Below, piece after piece: positions 46,425 to 56,135 of a stretch of 64,000 bases of DNA. Numbering within the stretch: position 1 is the stretch's first letter; the number at the start of each line of letters is the position of its first letter. A program made the translations under genes and the position numbers. Origin of the DNA: Myxococcales bacterium (GTDB taxonomy: Bacteria; Myxococcota; Polyangia; HGW-17; SLPX01). The DNA lies in the NCBI GenBank assembly GCA_007131745.1, contig SLPX01000204.1, positions 25,994 to 89,993 on the forward strand, in the 5' to 3' direction. Below the pieces are notes generated by a model. That model saw only the letters and a list, made by a program, of their open reading frames with translations. It did not search any database and had not been told where the DNA came from.

Positions 46425-49043
46425 TCAGCCGGAAGGCTTTCTACGGCTCATGCGGCCGAGGCAGGCTTGAGCGTCCCTGTTGATCTGCCAGACGCCTCTT
46501 ACCCGACGGGATGTTTCGTCATCGATAACCTTTTGTATTGCCTGTCCCATTTCTTCATTGTCTATGTGTCTTGAATCCGCGATGCGGTCAAGAGAGCGGA
46601 GAATGGCTTGTCTTACACTTACAGGGGCACCCTCATAGGCTCCGCTGAGGGTTCTTATCGCCATGTCTCTGTTGGCTGATTCTCTTCCGAGTATCCCAAG
46701 CATGTGAGCTGCTTTTTCCTGCCGCCGCCAATCCATTTCTTTCAATTCAACAGTTGGAAAACCTTCCTGGGCGCAATCCTGATCCGTGAAGCTGGAGAGG
46801 TTGTCGCCCTTAAGAGTAGCTATATAACAGTTGATGTCGTGCTTGCAGGTCTCCAGCACGGTAAGGCGCTTGGTCATTTGGCAAAGACGGCGCTCAATGG
46901 TCTCAATGGCTTTTTTACGCCGGGCTTTGACCATGTTTTCCGTCATGATCAGGTGTGGGTTTTTCAATATTTCGAGATCCATAGGATCATAGTAAGTCGT
47001 GCCTTCCTTCGGCATGGATTCCTCGGTTCTGTTCGGAGGCGTCAGGAAAATCTCGGGCTTGAGATTTTGCAGAAGGGGGAGCTCTTTCATGGTAGCTGCA
47101 CGCATTGCTTCCGATGCAAAATTCAATCTCATTTCCTGATCTCCATCCAGGCAGGTGTAAAACGTTTCCGCGTTACAAACACCCCATTCGTAGCATTTAG
47201 GTACACCAAGCCTTCGTTCTTCTTCTGTTGGAGATTCTTTGCACGCAGGCTCCTTGCTTTTGGTTTCCGGATCGGCACAGTACTCGTGCTGGTAATCCTT
47301 TACATCGTTGGGTTCAAAATAGCCGACGAGTTTTTTGACTTCAGGCAGCCAGAAATTCTCCCTGAAACGCTTGAAACATTCTTCCGCGGAATTGCCTTCG
47401 GCCTGGCATTCCTGCCATCGTTGATCCAGCTCGGGTTTTGCGGCAGGGCATTGCTTTTGTGCCGCCGCCCAGCCGGCGTGTTGGAACATTCGGTATTTGA
47501 AAGAATGGCCGATCCAACTCTGTACGGTTCCGATTCGGTCTATAAGGGTTCTCAGAAGCTCTTCATCGTGTGGTGCACGACCAATGGCTTCCGCAGCTTT
47601 CATCATGCTGCCTGGATCCCCGCTCCAGTTCAGGCTTCTTATCAACTCCGCCTTGAGACCTTCAACTTCGTCGATGTGGCCGAGATGGCCGACAGCGAAC
47701 AAAAACTCCATCCGGATGTTCATGTCGCGGCCGTAACCTTCGATTTGCATTCTTTGGTTTTGCACCCGCGGCAGCCATCGATCTTCCCTATCCATTTTTC
47801 GAAACCATTTTCTTTCGAGTGCCCTGCTACCGTAGTGTGCCAGCATTTCGGTCAATACCATGTTGTCTTTGCCGGGGTCTCCTATTTCCCTGAGGGCGAT
47901 AATGGAGTTCAGCTCCACCACGCCTGGTTCCTGTTCTTCCCACCTTTCGACCCGGCTCTCCCAGAATATGTCACAGATAAAAGAAACATCCGAAGGAACG
48001 TCGTCGGGACACGGGGGCATCTCTTTCAGTGCGCTCAGTCTTTCGTTCAAAGCGTCGATGGTGGATTGGTTCGCTTCTTTAGCTTTGTCATCCTCTTCGA
48101 GTTTCGCCAGAACGCGTGTCCATGGGTCACCTTTGACCAGCCATACAAGCGGTTTTACAGCCGGATGAGATCCATCGGCGGCTGCGGGAAGCTGGGCCAG
48201 AGCGACCACGGAATATGGATGGAAAGCGCGGCCTCGCCCCTTTCGAAAAAGAGAGGCGATGAGAGCCTGGACGGTTCTGGGGCTGTTGTCGCCAACATTT
48301 CCCAGAGAGCGCGCCGCGAAAATATTGACCATTGGATCCTGGATTTGCCCCTGTTGGAATCCGAAATCCAGAATCGTGGCGAGCAGTCGCCCTGCAACGG
48401 TTTTCTTTTCAGGCAGAGCTTCTATCAAGGGCGGCATAGCGTTGACCACCGCGTTTCTGATGAAGCTGCGTTGGTCCAGAGCTTCCAATACACCCGAGCC
48501 CTTTCCGGTTCGACAAATGCGATCTATCAATGCGCCGATGACGTTCATTGCTTCGCCTGGAACTTTTTTATCCTCGGCCAGTGCTCCAAGTCCACCGAGA
48601 GCCTTTGCGACCAGTCCTTCCTGTAAATCCACGTCGCCGTACTTATCCATGGTGTCATCTACATATTCCTGGATAATCCTTATATAGAGAGGAACGGCTT
48701 CTTCCGCTTCAAACATCATGAGATGTTCGAGGATCTCTTGGGTAGCTTCGTACCGGTCATTGATCTTGACATCAAAGGCCTTTACAAGGACGGGATTAAC
48801 CTTTTTGCGAAAAGCCTCCAGGCTCTTTGCCGACTCTTCACCAGCTGCACCCGGTCTTTCGGCGAGAGCCTTTGTCGTTTCATGAATGCGGTAGAGGTTA
48901 ACCAGTGATTCTCTTCTCTTAAAGGAACTGCTGTTAATTTGGGCAAGCCAAGTGTCTGGAGAGTCGGGGTCTGTCCAACAGCCGCCCAGCATGGTGCTGA
49001 GAATTGTCGCTATGGATGCGATAGCCACCAAGGGTCTAGTCAT
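46425..49043 (-). CDS. HEAT-repeat lipoprotein
   Basis: An 872-residue protein. The signal peptide ends in the lipobox MLGGC (Cys22), so it is a lipoprotein. Helical HEAT-like repeats cover most of the length (for example ALGGLGALAEDKKVPGEA, ARSLGNVGDNSPRTVQA, LLFAVGHLGHIDEVEG, AHMLGILGRES). A Cys-rich insert (CADPETKSKEPACKE... CYEWGVCNAETFYTC) lies around residues 595-640. It probably acts as an envelope scaffold. AAGGAG lies 8 bases before the ATG, and a strong promoter lies upstream. It is divergent from the SctL/SctN pair and leads the run with the FHA-sigma54 activator. Confidence 0.85.
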   Translation of the reverse strand: MTRPLVAIASIATILSTMLGGCWTDPDSPDTWLAQINSSSFKRRESLVNLYRIHETTKALAERPGAAGEESAKSLEAFRKKVNPVLVKAFDVKINDRYEATQEILEHLMMFEAEEAVPLYIRIIQEYVDDTMDKYGDVDLQEGLVAKALGGLGALAEDKKVPGEAMNVIGALIDRICRTGKGSGVLEALDQRSFIRNAVVNAMPPLIEALPEKKTVAGRLLATILDFGFQQGQIQDPMVNIFAARSLGNVGDNSPRTVQALIASLFRKGRGRAFHPYSVVALAQLPAAADGSHPAVKPLVWLVKGDPWTRVLAKLEEDDKAKEANQSTIDALNERLSALKEMPPCPDDVPSDVSFICDIFWESRVERWEEQEPGVVELNSIIALREIGDPGKDNMVLTEMLAHYGSRALERKWFRKMDREDRWLPRVQNQRMQIEGYGRDMNIRMEFLFAVGHLGHIDEVEGLKAELIRSLNWSGDPGSMMKAAEAIGRAPHDEELLRTLIDRIGTVQSWIGHSFKYRMFQHAGWAAAQKQCPAAKPELDQRWQECQAEGNSAEECFKRFRENFWLPEVKKLVGYFEPNDVKDYQHEYCADPETKSKEPACKESPTEEERRLGVPKCYEWGVCNAETFYTCLDGDQEMRLNFASEAMRAATMKELPLLQNLKPEIFLTPPNRTEESMPKEGTTYYDPMDLEILKNPHLIMTENMVKARRKKAIETIERRLCQMTKRLTVLETCKHDINCYIATLKGDNLSSFTDQDCAQEGFPTVELKEMDWRRQEKAAHMLGILGRESANRDMAIRTLSGAYEGAPVSVRQAILRSLDRIADSRHIDNEEMGQAIQKVIDDETSRRVRGVWQINRDAQACLGRMSRRKPSG

Positions 49044-49088: not shown

Positions 49089-49118
49089 AGTATAGATTTT
49101 CCAAGTCCCTTGTGTCAA
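49089..49118 (-). promoter_or_regulatory. Sigma70-type promoter of the HEAT lipoprotein gene
   Basis: On the minus strand a perfect TTGACA (49113-49118), an 18-base spacer and TATACT (49089-49094, 5 of 6). The -10 box is 45 bases from the ATG at 49043. Confidence 0.55.
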
Positions 49119-49214
49119 GGAATCGCGACCGGTATTTTATTATGCACCAAAAGGTGGAAAATTCTCAGAAAATCAGGGATTCTGGACAGGAAAGATCAGG
49201 AGACGAAAAGGGCT

Positions 49215-49844
49215 ATGTGCGATAAAAAAACAGGACGGGTAGTTCGGGGAGTGGTTTTGAAGAACAAGACCGCAATGATTTCCCGAAGAATTTTTCAGGC
49301 GGAATTGGATGGGCGGCGGATAATTGAAAACGCTGAAGAAAAGGCAAAACAAATAATTGCCGATGCCCTTGAAAAAAAAGAAGAAATAGAAAAACAGGGC
49401 CGGCTTGAAGGGATTGAGGCAGGGAAAGCGGAAATGGTAGGAGTTCTTTCCCGCGTCGCCGCGGAAGCTGAAAAACTGAGACAAAACGCGGCCGATCGGA
49501 TGATAGAACTTGCAGTGCAGATAGCCCGGAAAATACTTGAAGAGGAATTGACAACCAGCCCGGAAAAAATCCGTTTGTTGGCGCGAAAAGCGCTGAAGGG
49601 GGCAAAATGGGCGCAAAGTGTCAAGATAAAGGCGAATCCGAAAGATCTCGAAATGCTTGAAAATTCAAGAGGCGAATTCATGTCTTTGTTATCGAGCGTG
49701 AATGAATTGTCCATTGTGGGGGACTCCGAAGTGCCTATCGGGGGGTGTGTTGTCGAAACGGAAGAAGGTGAAATGGACGCCACCCTTGAGACACAGGTTT
49801 CCGCTATGTACCAAGCATTGAAAAAGGAGCTGAATAATGAATGA
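49215..49844 (+). CDS. sctL: SctL/FliH-like stator protein of a type III export ATPase
   Basis: About 209 residues from the ATG at 49215, with AAGGG close upstream and AGGAG further away. The N-terminal half is a charged coiled coil (about 25-95) of the FliH/SctL and V-ATPase E-subunit type. The C-terminal half has the QIARKILEEEL helix, the KIKANPKDLE strand, and the GGCVVETEEGEMDATLETQ motif typical of SctL/HrpE/YscL. It should bind and restrain the ATPase encoded next. The genes overlap by 8 bases. No other export-apparatus gene is near. FliH of a flagellum is the alternative reading. Confidence 0.85.
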   Translation: MCDKKTGRVVRGVVLKNKTAMISRRIFQAELDGRRIIENAEEKAKQIIADALEKKEEIEKQGRLEGIEAGKAEMVGVLSRVAAEAEKLRQNAADRMIELAVQIARKILEEELTTSPEKIRLLARKALKGAKWAQSVKIKANPKDLEMLENSRGEFMSLLSSVNELSIVGDSEVPIGGCVVETEEGEMDATLETQVSAMYQALKKELNNE

Positions 49845-51162
49845 GGGAGATCCATTCGATCGCGTTGCAAGGGCGGCGACGTTTTTGAAGGAAACGGATA
49901 CATTGAAGACCAAGGGGAGGATCGTGGAGATCTTGGGGCTAATGCTCAAAGCGACTGTTCCGGGTGTGAAAACCGGGGATCTTGTAGAGGTCCGGCGCGG
50001 CGATGGCGCTTTTCTCACAGCGGAAATCGTAGGTTTCAGGGGAGGCAGCGCAGTATTGGCGCCCTTGGGGGAAGTGACGGGAGTCGGACCCGACAGCGAA
50101 GTGGTTCCGGTTAACCGAAAGCTTAGCCTGCGTTGCGGGTTCGGCTTGATTGGCAGGGTGTTGGATGGATTGGGGAAACCGGTGGATGGAAAGGGAACCA
50201 TTCAAGGTCCGACGGAGGTTTGGGATGTAGATCGTGCTGCACCGGATCCTCTCAGCCGCCCCCGGATTACCAAGCCTCTGTCCATGGGGGTTCGCGCTTT
50301 GGATGGTTTGTTGACGGTCGGCGAAGGACAGCGCGTGGGTCTTTTTGCCGGATCGGGGGTTGGAAAATCAACCTTGCTCGGACAAATAGCGAGAAACACG
50401 GAAGCCGAAGTAAATGTTATTTGCTTGGTGGGGGAGCGGGGAAGGGAGGTAAGAGAATTTTTGGAAGATTCTTTGGAAGATGAGGGAATGCAAAGATCGG
50501 TTGTTGTATGCGCAACCAGCGATACGCCCGGTCAAATAAGGCTCAAATGTCCGTTGGTGGCCACGGCTGTGGCCGAATATTTCAGGGCTAAAGGCAAAAA
50601 GGTTCTTTTTTTACTGGATTCGGTGACTCGTTACGCCCGTGCACTTCGGGAAGTTGGACTTGCTGCAGGAGAGCCGCCCGCGAGGAGAGGATATCCTCCC
50701 AGTGTTTTTGCCGCTTTGCCGCGGCTTTTGGAACGCACCGGTATGGCCCGCGAGGGATCTGTAACCGCTATTTATACCGTTTTGGTTGAGGGCGGAGACA
50801 TGGAAGAGCCGATAGCCGACGAGGTGAGAGGCATTTTGGACGGACATGTCGTTTTGAGCAGGGAGTTGGCCGCGCGGAATCATTATCCTGCAATAGATGT
50901 TCTTAACAGTCTCTCCCGGGTAATGAATGCTGTTGCGGATGAGCGGCATGTCAGAAACGCCGGCGTATTCCGATCTCTTCTGGCTGCTTATGAGTCCAAC
51001 CGCGACCTGATCACTCTGGGTGCCTACAAGAAGGGAAGCGATCCGTCGGTGGACGAAGCCTTGGAAAAGCTGCAAGATATAACAGCTTTTTTGCAACAGT
51101 CCACCGGGGAGGAGGCTTTGATGAGTGACACAGTCAACCGGTTATCCGCCATTGTCGGTTGA
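49837..51162 (+). CDS. sctN: SctN/FliI-family type III secretion ATPase
   Basis: A 441-residue export ATPase of normal length. Walker A GSGVGKST is at residues 172-179. GERGREVREF, LLDSVTRYARALRE and GYPPSVFAALPRL are family motifs. It hexamerises at the cytoplasmic base of a type III secretion system or flagellum to unfold and feed substrates. The sequence around ATSDTPGQ and LAAGEPPARRGYPP fits SctN slightly better than FliI, but flagellar origin cannot be excluded. It overlaps sctL by 8 bases at its start and the convergent peptidase gene by 21 bases at its end. Confidence 0.9.
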   Translation: MNEGDPFDRVARAATFLKETDTLKTKGRIVEILGLMLKATVPGVKTGDLVEVRRGDGAFLTAEIVGFRGGSAVLAPLGEVTGVGPDSEVVPVNRKLSLRCGFGLIGRVLDGLGKPVDGKGTIQGPTEVWDVDRAAPDPLSRPRITKPLSMGVRALDGLLTVGEGQRVGLFAGSGVGKSTLLGQIARNTEAEVNVICLVGERGREVREFLEDSLEDEGMQRSVVVCATSDTPGQIRLKCPLVATAVAEYFRAKGKKVLFLLDSVTRYARALREVGLAAGEPPARRGYPPSVFAALPRLLERTGMAREGSVTAIYTVLVEGGDMEEPIADEVRGILDGHVVLSRELAARNHYPAIDVLNSLSRVMNAVADERHVRNAGVFRSLLAAYESNRDLITLGAYKKGSDPSVDEALEKLQDITAFLQQSTGEEALMSDTVNRLSAIVG

Positions 51163-52395
51163 TTCCGGGTTTTCATCATCAGTTAACCGGCCTTTCATCC
51201 ACCACGGTAAAGCCATCAAAATTCCGATGGCCGTACCCGTGATAGCGAAGACAACGAAAGTTCTGGTGTTGGGAAAAAGGGGTCCAAGAAGCCCCGATGC
51301 TAGAAAAGTCATCCCGAGTCCGGCCAGAAACCAAATCAGAGAGGGCCGGTAATCCTGGTTCTTTTCTTCTTGCGGGCGATCATCTGTTTGGGGATATGAC
51401 GGGAGGATCATATCGGCGTCATCAGGCATGGCGCTTATCCTGATTCTTTGAGTGCGTTTCTTTTTCATGTAGCCGAGCACCAAGAGAAGGGCTGCAAGAA
51501 TCCAGAGAATGAGTCCTGAGGTAACCAGGGGAACCACCAATGTTCTGTACCGCCAGTCTCTGCGCCATCGATTTTCCATGGAGTCCAGTGAAACACCGTA
51601 GATCCGTTTGACCGCCGCGTGGAAAGGGGCGCCCCGGCTTAGAAGTTTTATAAGGGAATGGAAATCCTCGGGTGAGCCGCTCGAATACAGAAAAGAAACA
51701 AATGAGCGACTTTGGCTGTATGCGGCGGATGCTTGCCTGTGATTGCGGGGAAACCTTTGTTCAAGTTCGCCCAGGGGAAGGGTGGAAGGACTGAAATCAA
51801 CGGAGAGAGGATCGGTGCGGCCGGCCGTAAGGTCCGCAACACCCTCGACAAACCATTTGGGCAATCGCCGATACCCGGTTGCGTGTGCCAGAGATACATG
51901 TGAATACTCGTGAGACAGCAAGGCGAAACGCGCGGACAGAGAATGGGTTTCCGAAGGACCCATCACAATGTATTGAATTCGCGGAAACGCCACTGCAGCG
52001 GCCCAGTATGGGATTTTTACACCTTGGGGCAACAGAGAATGAAACCGGGAACGCGTTGCGCTCAGGGATACAGTGGTTTTCGGAGGAGGCTCGGTTCCAA
52101 GAATGCGGACTGTTTCGGCCTCAAGCAGATGACCTTTTTTTGCGAGTGCATGGGCCTGATCCTCTAAAGAATGGGGATAACGAAAACAAAACCGACCTCT
52201 GCATTCTTCAGTGTAATCAGGTGGAAGGACCGGAATTTTTCCCGGCTTTCGATCTGAAACAGGATCTACGTGAACGCTTTGAGTTTTCTTATCGTGTGGT
52301 GAGTGAATCCTTTGGTTTGACGCAAAGGCGCAAACAGCCTGTAAAAGACAATATAAAAAGAGAGTTTTCGGAAGAATAAAAAACATTTGGCTCAA
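51142..52395 (-). CDS. Membrane-bound gluzincin peptidase (peptidase MA-like)
   Basis: A 417-residue protein. A signal peptide (about 1-26) precedes the extracytoplasmic peptidase domain, which carries HEYSH (H162-H166) with a likely third zinc ligand E184 in WFVEGVADL, the MA-like gluzincin arrangement. A Trp/Arg-rich stretch is followed by transmembrane segments at about 290-312, 354-374 and 379-397. It would cleave proteins outside the membrane. The start (TTG at 52395) lies in a 4-base overlap with the preceding TPR protein gene; an ATG at 52386 is an alternative. It is the last gene of the HxsB-like operon, so it may process or export the product of that pathway. The 3' end overlaps sctN. 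Confidence 0.83.
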   Translation of the reverse strand: MSQMFFILPKTLFLYCLLQAVCAFASNQRIHSPHDKKTQSVHVDPVSDRKPGKIPVLPPDYTEECRGRFCFRYPHSLEDQAHALAKKGHLLEAETVRILGTEPPPKTTVSLSATRSRFHSLLPQGVKIPYWAAAVAFPRIQYIVMGPSETHSLSARFALLSHEYSHVSLAHATGYRRLPKWFVEGVADLTAGRTDPLSVDFSPSTLPLGELEQRFPRNHRQASAAYSQSRSFVSFLYSSGSPEDFHSLIKLLSRGAPFHAAVKRIYGVSLDSMENRWRRDWRYRTLVVPLVTSGLILWILAALLLVLGYMKKKRTQRIRISAMPDDADMILPSYPQTDDRPQEEKNQDYRPSLIWFLAGLGMTFLASGLLGPLFPNTRTFVVFAITGTAIGILMALPWWMKGRLTDDENPESTDNGG

Positions 52396-53750
52396 GGCCG
52401 TTGAACCTTGATTTCAACCCGGCTTTCGGGGTCTTTTCTGACTGCAAACACGACGGTGACGATTCCGACAACGCCCAGTGCAGTCCAGAAATACCAGCGC
52501 TTCCACACCGGAACGGGTTTCTTTTTTTTCGGAGGCAGGGTTTTCTTTTCGGTTACCTTTACTGCTGCTTTGCGTTTGCTTTTTTTCAAATCGATGGGTT
52601 TAGGAGCAAGACTTTTTGCAACCGCGGTCGCCCAAAGGGAAAGGTTTTCGCTGTGTTCGACACTGACGGAGGGAATAACTTCAAACGACAAAGGCAGAAG
52701 TTTTTTCTTTTTGGCTTCAAATATTTGAAGAATAATCGTCTCTTTTTTTCTTCTTGCCAGTATAAGCCTGTCAGCGCCGGTTTTTTCCGCCAATGACAAC
52801 ATGTCTTTTTCTCCGGGAACAGTGGGTTTTGACAACCATTCGCCCACGGTGTTGCGGACATCTTGATGCGGATCTTCGGCCAAAGGAGACATGCCTGCAA
52901 CGATGTAGACTTCGTCCCGACCAGGTTGAATTTTTGTATAAAACTTTTTGTGGCCGGGCGCTTCCACGACAACGTGTAAAAGACCGGTATGAGAAATCAG
53001 TGTCCATAATGCATTGTTGTCATCGACCGTTTGGGCGTCGTCTTCAAGAAGCTTGAAGTTTACGTAAACCGACGCTTCTTTTGGGGCGCGGATTTTTAGA
53101 GGTCGTTTTTGTGGCCTTTTCTTCGGCAAGATTTTTTTCCAAAGCGAAGACGGGATAGTCTGGGGGTAGGCGCCTGCCACAACGTAATGAAGAATCTCAG
53201 CGTACTCCCGCATTTGTTCCTCTTGCCCAATCGAATTCATGGAGAGGATCAGGTATGATAAGGTGGAGGCAAGGCCTTCGCTGCCTTTTTCTTGGCCTAC
53301 ATGTTCGAGAAAAATCGATTTAGCGCGTTTCAATACGTCTATCGCTTCCTCGAATTTGAGTTCTCCATAAAGAGCCCGGCCTTTTGTAAGCTTGTTATCA
53401 GCTTTTTCGAAACTACCGTCAAAAGGAGCGGACAAGAGAGCATTCCTCAAATCTTCTTTGTCGAGACCTTTTCCAAGAGAAGTTTTGTCCAGAATTTCAT
53501 ATAGAAGGTGAAGATTTTTTCTCGTCGAGGAATCCGGCGAAACAGTGTTTATAATTGCAAAAGTCCCCGGCAAAGTCGCTTTGCGGCAAGGCGGCTTTTC
53601 TTCTTTGCTCATTGTGCCGGACGGAGAGGTTTTTTTTGTGGATGGTTTTGCTTCTGTTTTCTCCAGGGGGAGGTTTTCGGCCGAAGCCTGAATAGGTCTC
53701 CAAAAAACCAAAGCGGCCATTACAATGAAAACTTTTTTAAATTCACGCAA
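52392..53750 (-). CDS. TPR/PEGA-like membrane protein in the HxsB-like operon
   Basis: A 452-residue protein. It has a signal peptide (MREFKKVFIVMAALVFW, cut near ASAE), a Lys/Pro-rich linker, and a helical TPR-like part (about 110-205). A PEGA-like beta domain follows (about 215-275, with VYVNFKLLEDD and VVVEAPGHKKFYTKI), then a domain resembling a nucleotide- or effector-binding fold (DRLILARRKKETIIL). The Lys-rich stretch and one transmembrane helix (WYFWTALGVVGIVTVVFAV) end the protein. Such architectures are common in myxobacterial envelope proteins. The TTG at 53750 is the first start of the frame; an ATG at 53720 would cut the signal peptide. It follows the radical SAM gene by 56 bases. 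Confidence 0.7.
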   Translation of the reverse strand: MREFKKVFIVMAALVFWRPIQASAENLPLEKTEAKPSTKKTSPSGTMSKEEKPPCRKATLPGTFAIINTVSPDSSTRKNLHLLYEILDKTSLGKGLDKEDLRNALLSAPFDGSFEKADNKLTKGRALYGELKFEEAIDVLKRAKSIFLEHVGQEKGSEGLASTLSYLILSMNSIGQEEQMREYAEILHYVVAGAYPQTIPSSLWKKILPKKRPQKRPLKIRAPKEASVYVNFKLLEDDAQTVDDNNALWTLISHTGLLHVVVEAPGHKKFYTKIQPGRDEVYIVAGMSPLAEDPHQDVRNTVGEWLSKPTVPGEKDMLSLAEKTGADRLILARRKKETIILQIFEAKKKKLLPLSFEVIPSVSVEHSENLSLWATAVAKSLAPKPIDLKKSKRKAAVKVTEKKTLPPKKKKPVPVWKRWYFWTALGVVGIVTVVFAVRKDPESRVEIKVQRP

Positions 53751-53806
53751 GATGCTTCATGCCTTTCCTGCCATAAAAGGTTACATGTTCCGGGCTCGTA
53801 TCTTTT

Positions 53807-55333
53807 TTACCCCCGACGGCCGCCCGTGTAAATGGAAGATCTGTCCTTGTGTATCGTCCATCTTTCAAAGATAGGTTTCACCGATTCTTCGTCTTCAGCG
53901 AGATGTCTAAAAAGAATGTCCAGGATTCCTTTTTGGATTAAGCAACGATTGCACTGCGGAACGTGAGGAAACAAATCTCCCTGCGTAATGTAGGAATAAA
54001 CGGGACATACTCCACAATAAGGCTGATACGCGCAATCCGTGCATCCGGGTAATCCTTCAAGACAGGATGCCAAGCAGACGGATCGCACTCCCGGGTGACG
54101 TATAATTTCTTCGTAGCTTGATTCGTATACATTGCCGATGCAAAACATGTCATCGCCCATCGATCCGACCATTCTGCCTTCATCACATATATAAACTTTG
54201 CCGTCGTAGTTGTACGCAAGCTGGCCTATTCCAGCCCCGCACGGTGAGCGAAGGTCCATGTAATTGGAATCCCTGTCGGTAAGGATTGCGGTCAGAAACA
54301 GAGAGGCTGTTTTTTCAAGGATTTCAACGCCTTTTCGGTTCAGATCAAGAATGTGCTCAAACGCTTCTTCATAAAAATCAAGAAACTGTTCCGCCGAATA
54401 GTTTTGTTTTTTCCAAGCTTTTTCGGCAAAACCGAAGGGCTGAAGTGGCCGTAAATGAATGACTTTTTGACCTCGCTTGACATATTCATCCACAACATCT
54501 CGGCCCCGTTTAAGGGTATCTTTGGTCACGGTCAAAATTGTCCCGACATTGGCCAGGTCCGGATCCAATCCCTGGCTTGCGTATGCTTCATTTATCTTAT
54601 CCATCCAGCGAATGGCATGTTCGTAACTTCCGGGCTTTTTTCGGGGGCGGTTTGCATCATGAAGATCCCTTGGGCCGTCAAGGGATGTGCATATCTGTAC
54701 TCGGTTGTCCAACAGGAAACGCAGCTTTTTTTCATCCATGAGCGAAAGGCTGGTTACGATTGTAAAATAAACGGTTTTTCCCGACCCGATCGCCCGGGCT
54801 TCTTTTACGATCTGCTCCACCCTTTCAAAATTGGCCAGTGGTTCACCTCCCTGAAACTCTATTGTCAAAGATGGGGAGGGGGAGGAAACCGCTGTTTTTA
54901 GGGCCAGGGAGGCTGTTTCCGGCGACATGTCAAAGCCGTCTGCATTCATGGGTCGCCTGCCGGCTTGGCAATAAATGCAACGGTGATCGCATCGGAGCGT
55001 TAAGACAAAAATGTGGAGCAAAGGACCCTTGAAAAGGTGCAGATTTCTACTCCGGTAGACATCTTCCCATTTGTCTCTTTCACCCTGATTTTCTATGAAT
55101 CCCTTGTCCTTTAATTGAGCATGCAAGAGATGGGAGGGATCGAGACGTGATGATTGCAGATGCTCAAAGTCTTTTTTTGAGACAAACAGGTATCGACCCC
55201 AGTCGTTTGTCAGTAGGTACTGGTCTTTTATCTTCCGAAATCTGAAGTGACCAAGTCCGGAAAGAGAAAATGCTGACTTTTTGATTCGTGAAACCGGCAT
55301 GGATAAAGTTTTTTTACACGCGGGCATTGTCAC
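53807..55333 (-). CDS. hxsB: HxsB-like radical SAM/SPASM maturase
   Basis: A 508-residue radical SAM enzyme. The CxxxCxxC cluster motif is C115, C119, C122, followed by the FQGGEPLANF glycine-rich motif. The C-terminal SPASM region has Cys at 420, 424, 431, 434, 440, 443, 461 and 464. The stretches LLTNDWGRYLFVS, GFDMSPETASLAL and CTSLDGPRDLHDANRP match HxsB, the maturase of His-Xaa-Ser systems that modify ribosomal peptides. In known systems HxsB works with a second enzyme HxsC and partner HxsD. Here HxsC is absent. The gene overlaps the upstream small gene by 4 bases. The substrate is not identified. Confidence 0.9.
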   Translation of the reverse strand: MTMPACKKTLSMPVSRIKKSAFSLSGLGHFRFRKIKDQYLLTNDWGRYLFVSKKDFEHLQSSRLDPSHLLHAQLKDKGFIENQGERDKWEDVYRSRNLHLFKGPLLHIFVLTLRCDHRCIYCQAGRRPMNADGFDMSPETASLALKTAVSSPSPSLTIEFQGGEPLANFERVEQIVKEARAIGSGKTVYFTIVTSLSLMDEKKLRFLLDNRVQICTSLDGPRDLHDANRPRKKPGSYEHAIRWMDKINEAYASQGLDPDLANVGTILTVTKDTLKRGRDVVDEYVKRGQKVIHLRPLQPFGFAEKAWKKQNYSAEQFLDFYEEAFEHILDLNRKGVEILEKTASLFLTAILTDRDSNYMDLRSPCGAGIGQLAYNYDGKVYICDEGRMVGSMGDDMFCIGNVYESSYEEIIRHPGVRSVCLASCLEGLPGCTDCAYQPYCGVCPVYSYITQGDLFPHVPQCNRCLIQKGILDILFRHLAEDEESVKPIFERWTIHKDRSSIYTGGRRG

Positions 55334-55644
55334 TTCCGTTTTTGTTGGATCGAAAAGAAAAGCGCGTGGTTTACGAAAGATCCTGTGATTTCTTTCAATA
55401 ACTCGGGATCGGAATCCGGATCCGTGCAGGAAACGGTGACCGCATGATAAGGATTTCCGGATTTTACAACAATATCGGCGGTGGATCTGAAGGCCTCAAT
55501 CGCTTGTTTCAATGCCTTAAGTCGGTAGATCCGCCGATGAAAGGAGATCTGACAAACCCTTGGGCAAGTTTCCATCAACCAAGGCAATGTTCCTCTTTTT
55601 AGCTCGTAGAATCCCTTGTTTTTAAATTGAAACGATAAGCTCAT
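55330..55644 (-). CDS. Divergent HxsD-like small partner protein
   Basis: A 104-residue protein. The central part FHRRIYRLKALKQAIEAF and the C-terminal ITGSFVNHALFFSIQQK match the helix-strand-helix pattern of HxsD, and align with the neighbouring upstream protein (MDAVYGACHRF and AGEFANELLHQSLRLRI). This suggests a duplicated and diverged HxsD. HxsD is probably a peptide-recognition or scaffold partner of the maturase. It overlaps both neighbours by 4 bases, so the three genes form one translational unit. It could also be the substrate-carrying protein itself; no His-Xaa-Ser repeat is present. Confidence 0.7.
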   Translation of the reverse strand: MSLSFQFKNKGFYELKRGTLPWLMETCPRVCQISFHRRIYRLKALKQAIEAFRSTADIVVKSGNPYHAVTVSCTDPDSDPELLKEITGSFVNHALFFSIQQKRK

Positions 55645-56135
55645 GGGGATTCTTCCTCTGATGACTCCTTTGAAGAAGCCGCGTCGTCATTTTGCCCGGA
55701 AAATTTTTCTTCCCAGGGAACCGCTATGCCCAAAGGATCATCAAGATAGTCGGGATCAAAAGCAGCTTCTCCCCCATTGGTTTTACGATCTGACAACTCT
55801 TGGCCGCACAACTCTTCATCATTCTGGACGGGTTCGGCCGAAAGCAAAGCCCGGCCCAAGATCATCTCTCGAACAGCAGAAGTCTTGTTTGCAATTCTTA
55901 ATCGAAGAGACTGGTGTAGAAGTTCGTTGGCGAATTCTCCGGCGCAACTTTTCAGATCGGTATCGTTCATGGATGCTTTGGGTACAAGGTTGACTTCAAT
56001 GCGTCCGCCGGTCGGCTTGTCCAGGAACAGATAGAACTTGTCTATGAAACGATGGCATGCACCGTATACAGCGTCCATGGGATAAACCCGGAGAGACAAT
56101 TCAATGGAAATATGTTTGATGTTGTCTTTGTCCAT
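55641..56135 (-). CDS. hxsD: HxsD-like partner protein with acidic tail
   Basis: A 164-residue protein. The N-terminal 95 residues fit HxsD: SIELSLRVYPMDAVYGACHRFIDK... FLDKP, then AGEFANELLHQSLRLRIANKT and REMILGRALL. The last 70 residues are an added acidic Glu/Asp/Ser tail (ending SSKESSEEESP), not usual in HxsD. In known systems HxsD accompanies HxsB and HxsC. It is the first gene of the operon; the region before it shows no precursor gene. The ATG at 56135 lacks a good ribosome binding site. Expression with the next genes is coupled by overlaps. Confidence 0.72.
   Translation of the reverse strand: MDKDNIKHISIELSLRVYPMDAVYGACHRFIDKFYLFLDKPTGGRIEVNLVPKASMNDTDLKSCAGEFANELLHQSLRLRIANKTSAVREMILGRALLSAEPVQNDEELCGQELSDRKTNGGEAAFDPDYLDDPLGIAVPWEEKFSGQNDDAASSKESSEEESP

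Follow-up and report, generated by a model that had tools for sequence, protein, structure and literature searches.

A probable His-Xaa-Ser maturation locus without HxsC in a Myxococcales bacterium: two HxsD paralogues and a conserved HxsD C-terminal tail

The closest described counterpart of the genes analyzed here is the His-Xaa-Ser system, which comprises the precursor HxsA together with HxsB, HxsC and HxsD (TIGR03976-TIGR03979). No biochemistry of any His-Xaa-Ser system was found in the part of the literature that was searched, the open-licence papers of PubMed Central (PMC). We analyzed 64,000 nucleotides of DNA from a Myxococcales bacterium (assembly GCA_007131745.1, contig SLPX01000204.1, positions 25,994 to 89,993 of the forward strand), hereafter the window, in whose numbering all coordinates are given. 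A preliminary description had placed in it a minus-strand run of five genes with an HxsB-type enzyme, two HxsD paralogues and 4-base overlaps at three junctions. The open reading frames (ORFs) lie exactly where it put them, with overlaps at 55641-55644, 55330-55333 and 52392-52395, and the fourth junction, between hxsB and a gene for a 452-residue protein, is a 56-base gap. The identities of the first three products were also borne out, since all pass their NCBIfam cut-offs:

55641..56135, minus strand: HxsD, 164 residues (TIGR03976, 59.1 bits; cut-off 50)
55330..55644, minus strand: HxsD-like protein (HxsD_rel), 104 residues (NF038315, 46.9 bits; cut-off 41)
53807..55333, minus strand: HxsB radical SAM/SPASM maturase, 508 residues (TIGR03978, 531.8 bits; cut-off 370)

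HxsD_rel is a paralogue of HxsD (hhalign against the HxsD profile, probability 94.5). Six-frame profile searches for HxsC and HxsA returned nothing credible, in agreement with the earlier statement that neither HxsC nor a His-Xaa-Ser repeat protein lies nearby; these searches covered the 64 kb, so that missing here means missing from 64 kb. The HxsC profile recovered its positive control, locus L133, at E 3e-148. When stop-to-stop frames of more than 200 residues were scanned for CX3CX2C, the motif was present in HxsB only. The window thus contains a three-gene module in which HxsD, HxsD_rel and HxsB are adjacent and HxsC is absent from the 64 kb. Precomputed annotation assigns Pfam PF27806.1 to the window HxsD and its relatives; our local Pfam scan did not report it there.

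Two sets of loci (L numbers) and genomes (G numbers) were used for comparison. The first consisted of the best 80 of 576 confirmed relatives, selected by similarity to the window HxsB and recruited with alignment A1 (44 HxsB proteins; loci from named species genomes), which together with the window gave 81 loci. Most of the 80 were labelled Myxococcota, Deltaproteobacteria or similar, and the more distant ones included Elusimicrobia, Omnitrophota, Patescibacteria and Spirochaetes. Genome-level counts for this set refer to 42 genomes, and those for HxsA to 31. The second, unselected set was an even draw of 140 genomes across the phylum of G001, the nearest relative; 48 had HxsB over the cut-off, and loci were fetched from 20 of them (19 HxsC-less loci and L133 of G104). 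With nine HxsC-type loci, 108 loci were compared (80 related, 19 sampled, hence 99 HxsC-less, and nine), whereas the HxsB alignment and tree held 109 sequences (nine and 100 others). The flanks of many loci stop at contig ends. HxsB-like enzymes are numerous: of 7,999 candidates scored, 7,422 protein clusters matched at E<=1e-20.

As a rule, genomes of this phylum that encode HxsB lack HxsC and have a second HxsD-like gene. HxsD_rel was detected in 47 of the 48 sampled HxsB genomes (E<=1e-3; 43 over the cut-off), and HxsC in one, G104, which was also the sole genome without HxsD_rel. Among the 42 genomes of related loci, HxsC exceeded the cut-off only in the Polyangium genome of L038, where a separate contig carries it together with a tail-less HxsD of its own, and L038 itself has HxsD_rel. 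The preliminary description had named HxsC elsewhere in the same genome as evidence against a variant pathway; this single genome is the extent of it. Its proposal of such a pathway stands as far as an HxsC-less HxsB operon with two HxsD paralogues is concerned, but the special status that it implied does not, 47 of 48 HxsB genomes being alike.

The HxsC-type loci comprised seven plasmid loci around HxsB matches, L125 and L133. HxsC was annotated in six of the plasmid loci, and the seventh (L132) has an unnamed gene that scored 546 bits against an HxsC profile to which it had not contributed. All nine reached at least 486 bits with the HxsC profile, none of the 99 other loci reached 150, and no HxsD_rel was found at any of the nine. 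In the HxsB tree, one branch (support 0.906) parts the nine HxsC-type sequences from the other 100. HxsC and HxsD_rel are therefore nearly exclusive of each other at a locus: the family splits into two architectures, which stayed apart throughout the 108 loci compared, and the small-protein partner of each can now be named.

In 53 of the 81 loci the gene immediately upstream of HxsB is HxsD_rel, a count obtained from 61 profile matches by removing eight in which the profile had matched HxsD itself (six of the eight labelled Elusimicrobia or Elusimicrobiota), and HxsD was found within 2.6 kb upstream in 64. Upstream of HxsB in the remaining 17 loci no HxsD was found; L021, L037 and L047 of these have HxsD_rel, and L046, L047 and L053 sit near a contig end. 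Of the 19 sampled HxsC-less loci, 14 contain a detectable HxsD and, among the other five, L142 has HxsD_rel. Neither gene was found at L145, L146, L147 and L150; together with the 17 loci above, these represent a further type of neighbourhood. Several radical SAM genes in a row were seen at L043, L039 and L054 (small draft genomes G036, G033 and G039, with HxsB), some of them HxsC-like below the cut-off (121-181 bits).

HxsD of the HxsC-less loci has an unusually conserved C-terminal feature. The window protein has a folded body (residues about 8-100) followed by some 60 extra C-terminal residues; in its AlphaFold2 (AF2) model, blocks of residues 11-100 have mean predicted local distance difference test (pLDDT) values of 94-98, and the extension 52-66. 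A variable linker in this extension bears a short conserved tail with the pattern DDPLGIAVPWEEK:

55698..55745, minus strand: conserved HxsD tail, residues 131-146, LDDPLGIAVPWEEKFS (hidden Markov model of the tail, E 5.5e-14 in the window)

By mean majority identity, the tail (131-146) reaches 0.75, the body 0.51, the linker 0.25 and the stretch after the tail 0.20. Alignment A3 (the window and 39 of 47 gene-called HxsD of 130-235 residues) contains five invariant columns, M1, R78 and A96 outside the tail and D133 and W141 within it; this invariance holds for the 40 rows alone, because the tail-less HxsD of L032 was among the eight left out. Identity at codon positions 1, 2 and 3 over 54 tails was 0.87, 0.97 and 0.63; as the peptide pattern by which these tails were picked partly fixes positions 1 and 2, only position 3, which is free, is informative, and its value indicates that recent sharing of DNA does not explain the conservation.

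Altogether, 63 of 64 HxsD of HxsC-less loci had the tail, 57 by an in-frame match to a profile built from 45 sequences of these same loci and six as variants recognized by eye or with a looser pattern. The HxsD of L032 was the only one in which profile, looser pattern and eye revealed none. In the phylum sample, inspection by eye revealed the tail or a variant in all 14 HxsD found at the 19 HxsC-less loci, and none of the HxsD of the nine HxsC-type loci has a tail with Trp. As judged from these alignments and searches, the tail is conserved across HxsC-less HxsD. A search of 5.8 billion proteins found 310 matches, and all 120 that were listed were tail-bearing HxsD, a proportion biased by the exact words that this search needs. 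In the same word-biased sample, 7-50 variable residues follow the tail, with no conserved cleavage site by eye. HxsD keeps its tail also beside an adjacent HxsA. In two HxsC-type HxsD (L130 and L132) a short extension faintly resembles the tail's acidic half, and the HxsD of L141 (G135) has two tail copies, the second degenerate (DDPLEIGALWE).

The window HxsB shows the following features:

55034..55249, minus strand: N-terminal beta-beta-beta-alpha-alpha-alpha part, residues about 29-100 (secondary structure)
54968..54991, minus strand: radical SAM CX3CX2C motif, C115/C119/C122 (in 109 of 109 aligned HxsB)
53942..54241, minus strand: SPASM region, C365 to C464 (this HxsB retains C365/C383/C443; all nine HxsC-type HxsB have other residues there)

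The AF2 model of HxsB is CteB-like, with alignments that begin at residues 28-29 for CteB and 24 for TigE, residues before 97 being barely tested by the method. The modelled N-terminal domain is, in our reading, probably a leader-binding, RRE-like domain. All ten cysteines examined are present in the window HxsB. HxsC-type enzymes have A/S/M, S and D/E at the positions of C365, C383 and C443, three residues that presumably, from the anSME numbering, bind one auxiliary cluster. The other 100 HxsB keep them in 74, 79 and 68 cases and all three in 68; HxsC-type enzymes are not alone in having lost them, because one or more are replaced in 32 of these 100. Such replacements hint at a repeated loss of one auxiliary iron-sulfur cluster.

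The candidate substrate, HxsA, is present in most relatives. With a profile of 11 HxsA proteins (E<=1e-3), credible HxsA was detected in 27 of the 31 genomes; seven of the 31 had supplied profile sequences, and without these and the weak match of G001 the count is 20 of 24. No credible HxsA was found in G001, the closest relative; its two matches (E 4.5e-4 and 8.4e-4) lay in frames with stops and were not accepted, which lowered the count from 28. In the phylum sample, 36 of 41 further genomes had HxsA at E<=1e-10, and the five without it included the HxsC-type G104. His-Xaa-Ser repeat ORFs occurred in the fetched flanks of 42 of the 81 loci, and no more than 900 bases after the HxsB match in 37 of the 81. 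In several genomes (e.g., G002, G008, G013, G014, G018 and G019) HxsA and the recruiting HxsB are on different contigs, so that a lone hxsB operon is usual. Ten HxsA loci of this unlinked kind showed one radical SAM candidate nearby with a narrow motif pattern. The preliminary description had suggested searching relatives for a Ser/His-repeat protein, and most genomes do have HxsA, adjacent or unlinked, although none was found in the closest relative. It had also stated beforehand that HxsA elsewhere in the genome would count against a variant system; this is the situation in most relatives.

Leaders of HxsA were of mixed types. A twin-arginine-like motif before a hydrophobic stretch was recognized by eye in seven of 42 (12 of 42 by regular expression), and the others have a hydrophobic stretch alone or none; export is therefore likely for some products only. 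The seven (L003, L007, L009, L010, L012, L026 and L046) have motifs such as TRRDFL, TRRDLV and NRRTLL. By eye, the 'SW' form of the HxsD tail seems to accompany those HxsA that lack a hydrophobic stretch.

We consider it moderately probable that hxsD-hxsD_rel-hxsB is an HxsC-less His-Xaa-Ser maturation system that acts on an HxsA encoded in trans, with the HxsD pair as accessory proteins, the tail as a docking element and the last two genes of the run separate. HxsB is the module's sole radical SAM enzyme; its modelled N-terminal domain would bind the precursor leader, and HxsB would modify the precursor. HxsD and HxsD_rel are paralogues and probably serve as joint accessory partners of HxsB. 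The tail, with its near-invariant Trp on a flexible linker, may be a docking peptide that contacts HxsB, HxsD_rel or the substrate, and HxsC-type systems would do without it. The substrate would be a His-Xaa-Ser repeat protein of the HxsA type encoded elsewhere in the genome, as observed in most relatives and as presumed for the window organism. The 452-residue protein and the peptidase would constitute a module of their own, whose downstream position arose in the lineage of the window. Docking by the tail, if it occurs, may account for the ability of one enzyme to work in the absence of HxsC. The analysis yields a specific short peptide with a near-invariant Trp to test.

A different role for the same tail has to be weighed. 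HxsD of HxsC-less systems could itself be the radical SAM substrate and not a helper, its folded body serving as leader and its DDPLGIAVPWEEK tail being modified by HxsB at Trp, to give a permanently modified protein that contains its own peptide-derived cofactor or cross-link. This would mean that the substrate of a large enzyme group has been overlooked. A tail more conserved than the body, a variable linker, the invariant D133 and W141, the second, degenerate copy in L141 and the lack of HxsA in the window and in G001 all fit this idea. We nevertheless regard it as unlikely: HxsA repeat proteins are encoded in the great majority of such genomes (27 of 31 and 36 of 41), the tail is kept beside an adjacent HxsA, and the residues that follow it are variable, with no cleavage site conserved by eye.

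Another alternative concerns the last two genes of the run:

52392..53750, minus strand: 452-residue protein, N-terminal hydrophobic segment and C-terminal membrane segment (by eye)
51142..52395, minus strand: Peptidase_MA_2 metallopeptidase, 417 residues (PF13485, 49.2 bits; cut-off 32.4), HEYSH at 51898-51912

The earlier call of a peptidase was sound, with a family match above the cut-off and an HExxH motif (HEYSH); by eye, the protein also has an N-terminal signal-like segment. The label 'TPR/PEGA-like' for the 452-residue protein is unproven, because no Pfam or NCBIfam family matched it at the cut-off. A specialised pathway in which these two proteins act on the modified product at the envelope, by handling or cleaving it, as first proposed, would agree with the order hxsD-hxsD_rel-hxsB-452-peptidase common to the window and L001 (HxsB 67% identical), with the signal-like segment of the peptidase and with the twin-arginine-like leaders, which suggest that some products are probably exported. 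However, the two genes adjoin hxsB in only one of the 80 related loci, L001, which is also the only one with either gene within the fetched hxsB flanks, so that co-occurrence with the radical SAM gene, though not entirely absent, is seen solely through this close relative. Peptidase homologues are present in 31 of the 42 HxsB genomes, and the 452-residue protein is credible in two, G001 (beside hxsB) and G002 (away from it); two further genomes gave matches of 36-45 residues only (E 5e-4 to 8e-4). In L105 (G002) the pair occurs together without hxsB, and by eye a membrane-anchored protein lies upstream of the peptidase directly in L112 and one gene away in L111. This scenario is doubtful in our view. 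The two genes are probably not part of the maturation system, the peptidase being most likely an unrelated neighbour, and their linkage to hxsB appears to be a lineage-specific neighbourhood in which a functional link is possible.

In both the window and L001 the run is convergent with a gene for a type III secretion/flagellar-type ATPase. Window positions 49110-51162 (plus strand) contain a SctL/FliH-like gene (by position and eye) and a SctN/FliI-type ATPase gene (PF18269), convergent with the peptidase gene with a 21-base overlap. L001 has SctL/FliH-like and ATPase genes in the same place, together with a HEAT-repeat lipoprotein (window 46425-49043).

Finally, it seems improbable that the operon's dedicated substrate has been lost and that HxsB has turned to some other, unrecognised protein of the lineage: no HxsA was found in G001 or the window and the enzyme looks intact from its ten cysteines, yet HxsA is present in the genomes of five of eight other members of its tree clade (L002, L003, L004, L009 and L017), a sixth (L011) has an HxsA fragment at a contig end, and draft genomes may miss HxsA.

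Compared with other radical SAM systems, the window HxsB is 20% identical to CteB (PDB 5wgg/5why, titled thioether bond formation in sactipeptide biosynthesis). CteB acts on a Cys-rich peptide and not on a His-Xaa-Ser repeat. The window peptidase belongs with Peptidase_MA_2 metallopeptidases, whose homologues are usually not near hxsB and, to our knowledge, are not part of any His-Xaa-Ser system. The 104-residue protein is a member of the NF038315 'HxsD-like protein' family, which has already been modelled; the open-licence PMC papers searched contained no mention of its near-exclusion with HxsC at a locus, of a rule-like HxsC-less composition or of a conserved HxsD tail. The window locus resembles the described His-Xaa-Ser system in that its HxsB and HxsD pass the family cut-offs and most related genomes have His-Xaa-Ser repeat proteins. 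It differs in lacking HxsC (TIGR03977), in having a second HxsD paralogue and the HxsD tail, and in keeping C365/C383/C443 of HxsB. The His-Xaa-Ser system and the NF038315 family were already known, and the conserved HxsD C-terminal tail and the HxsC/HxsD_rel composition rule are, as far as the papers searched show, new.

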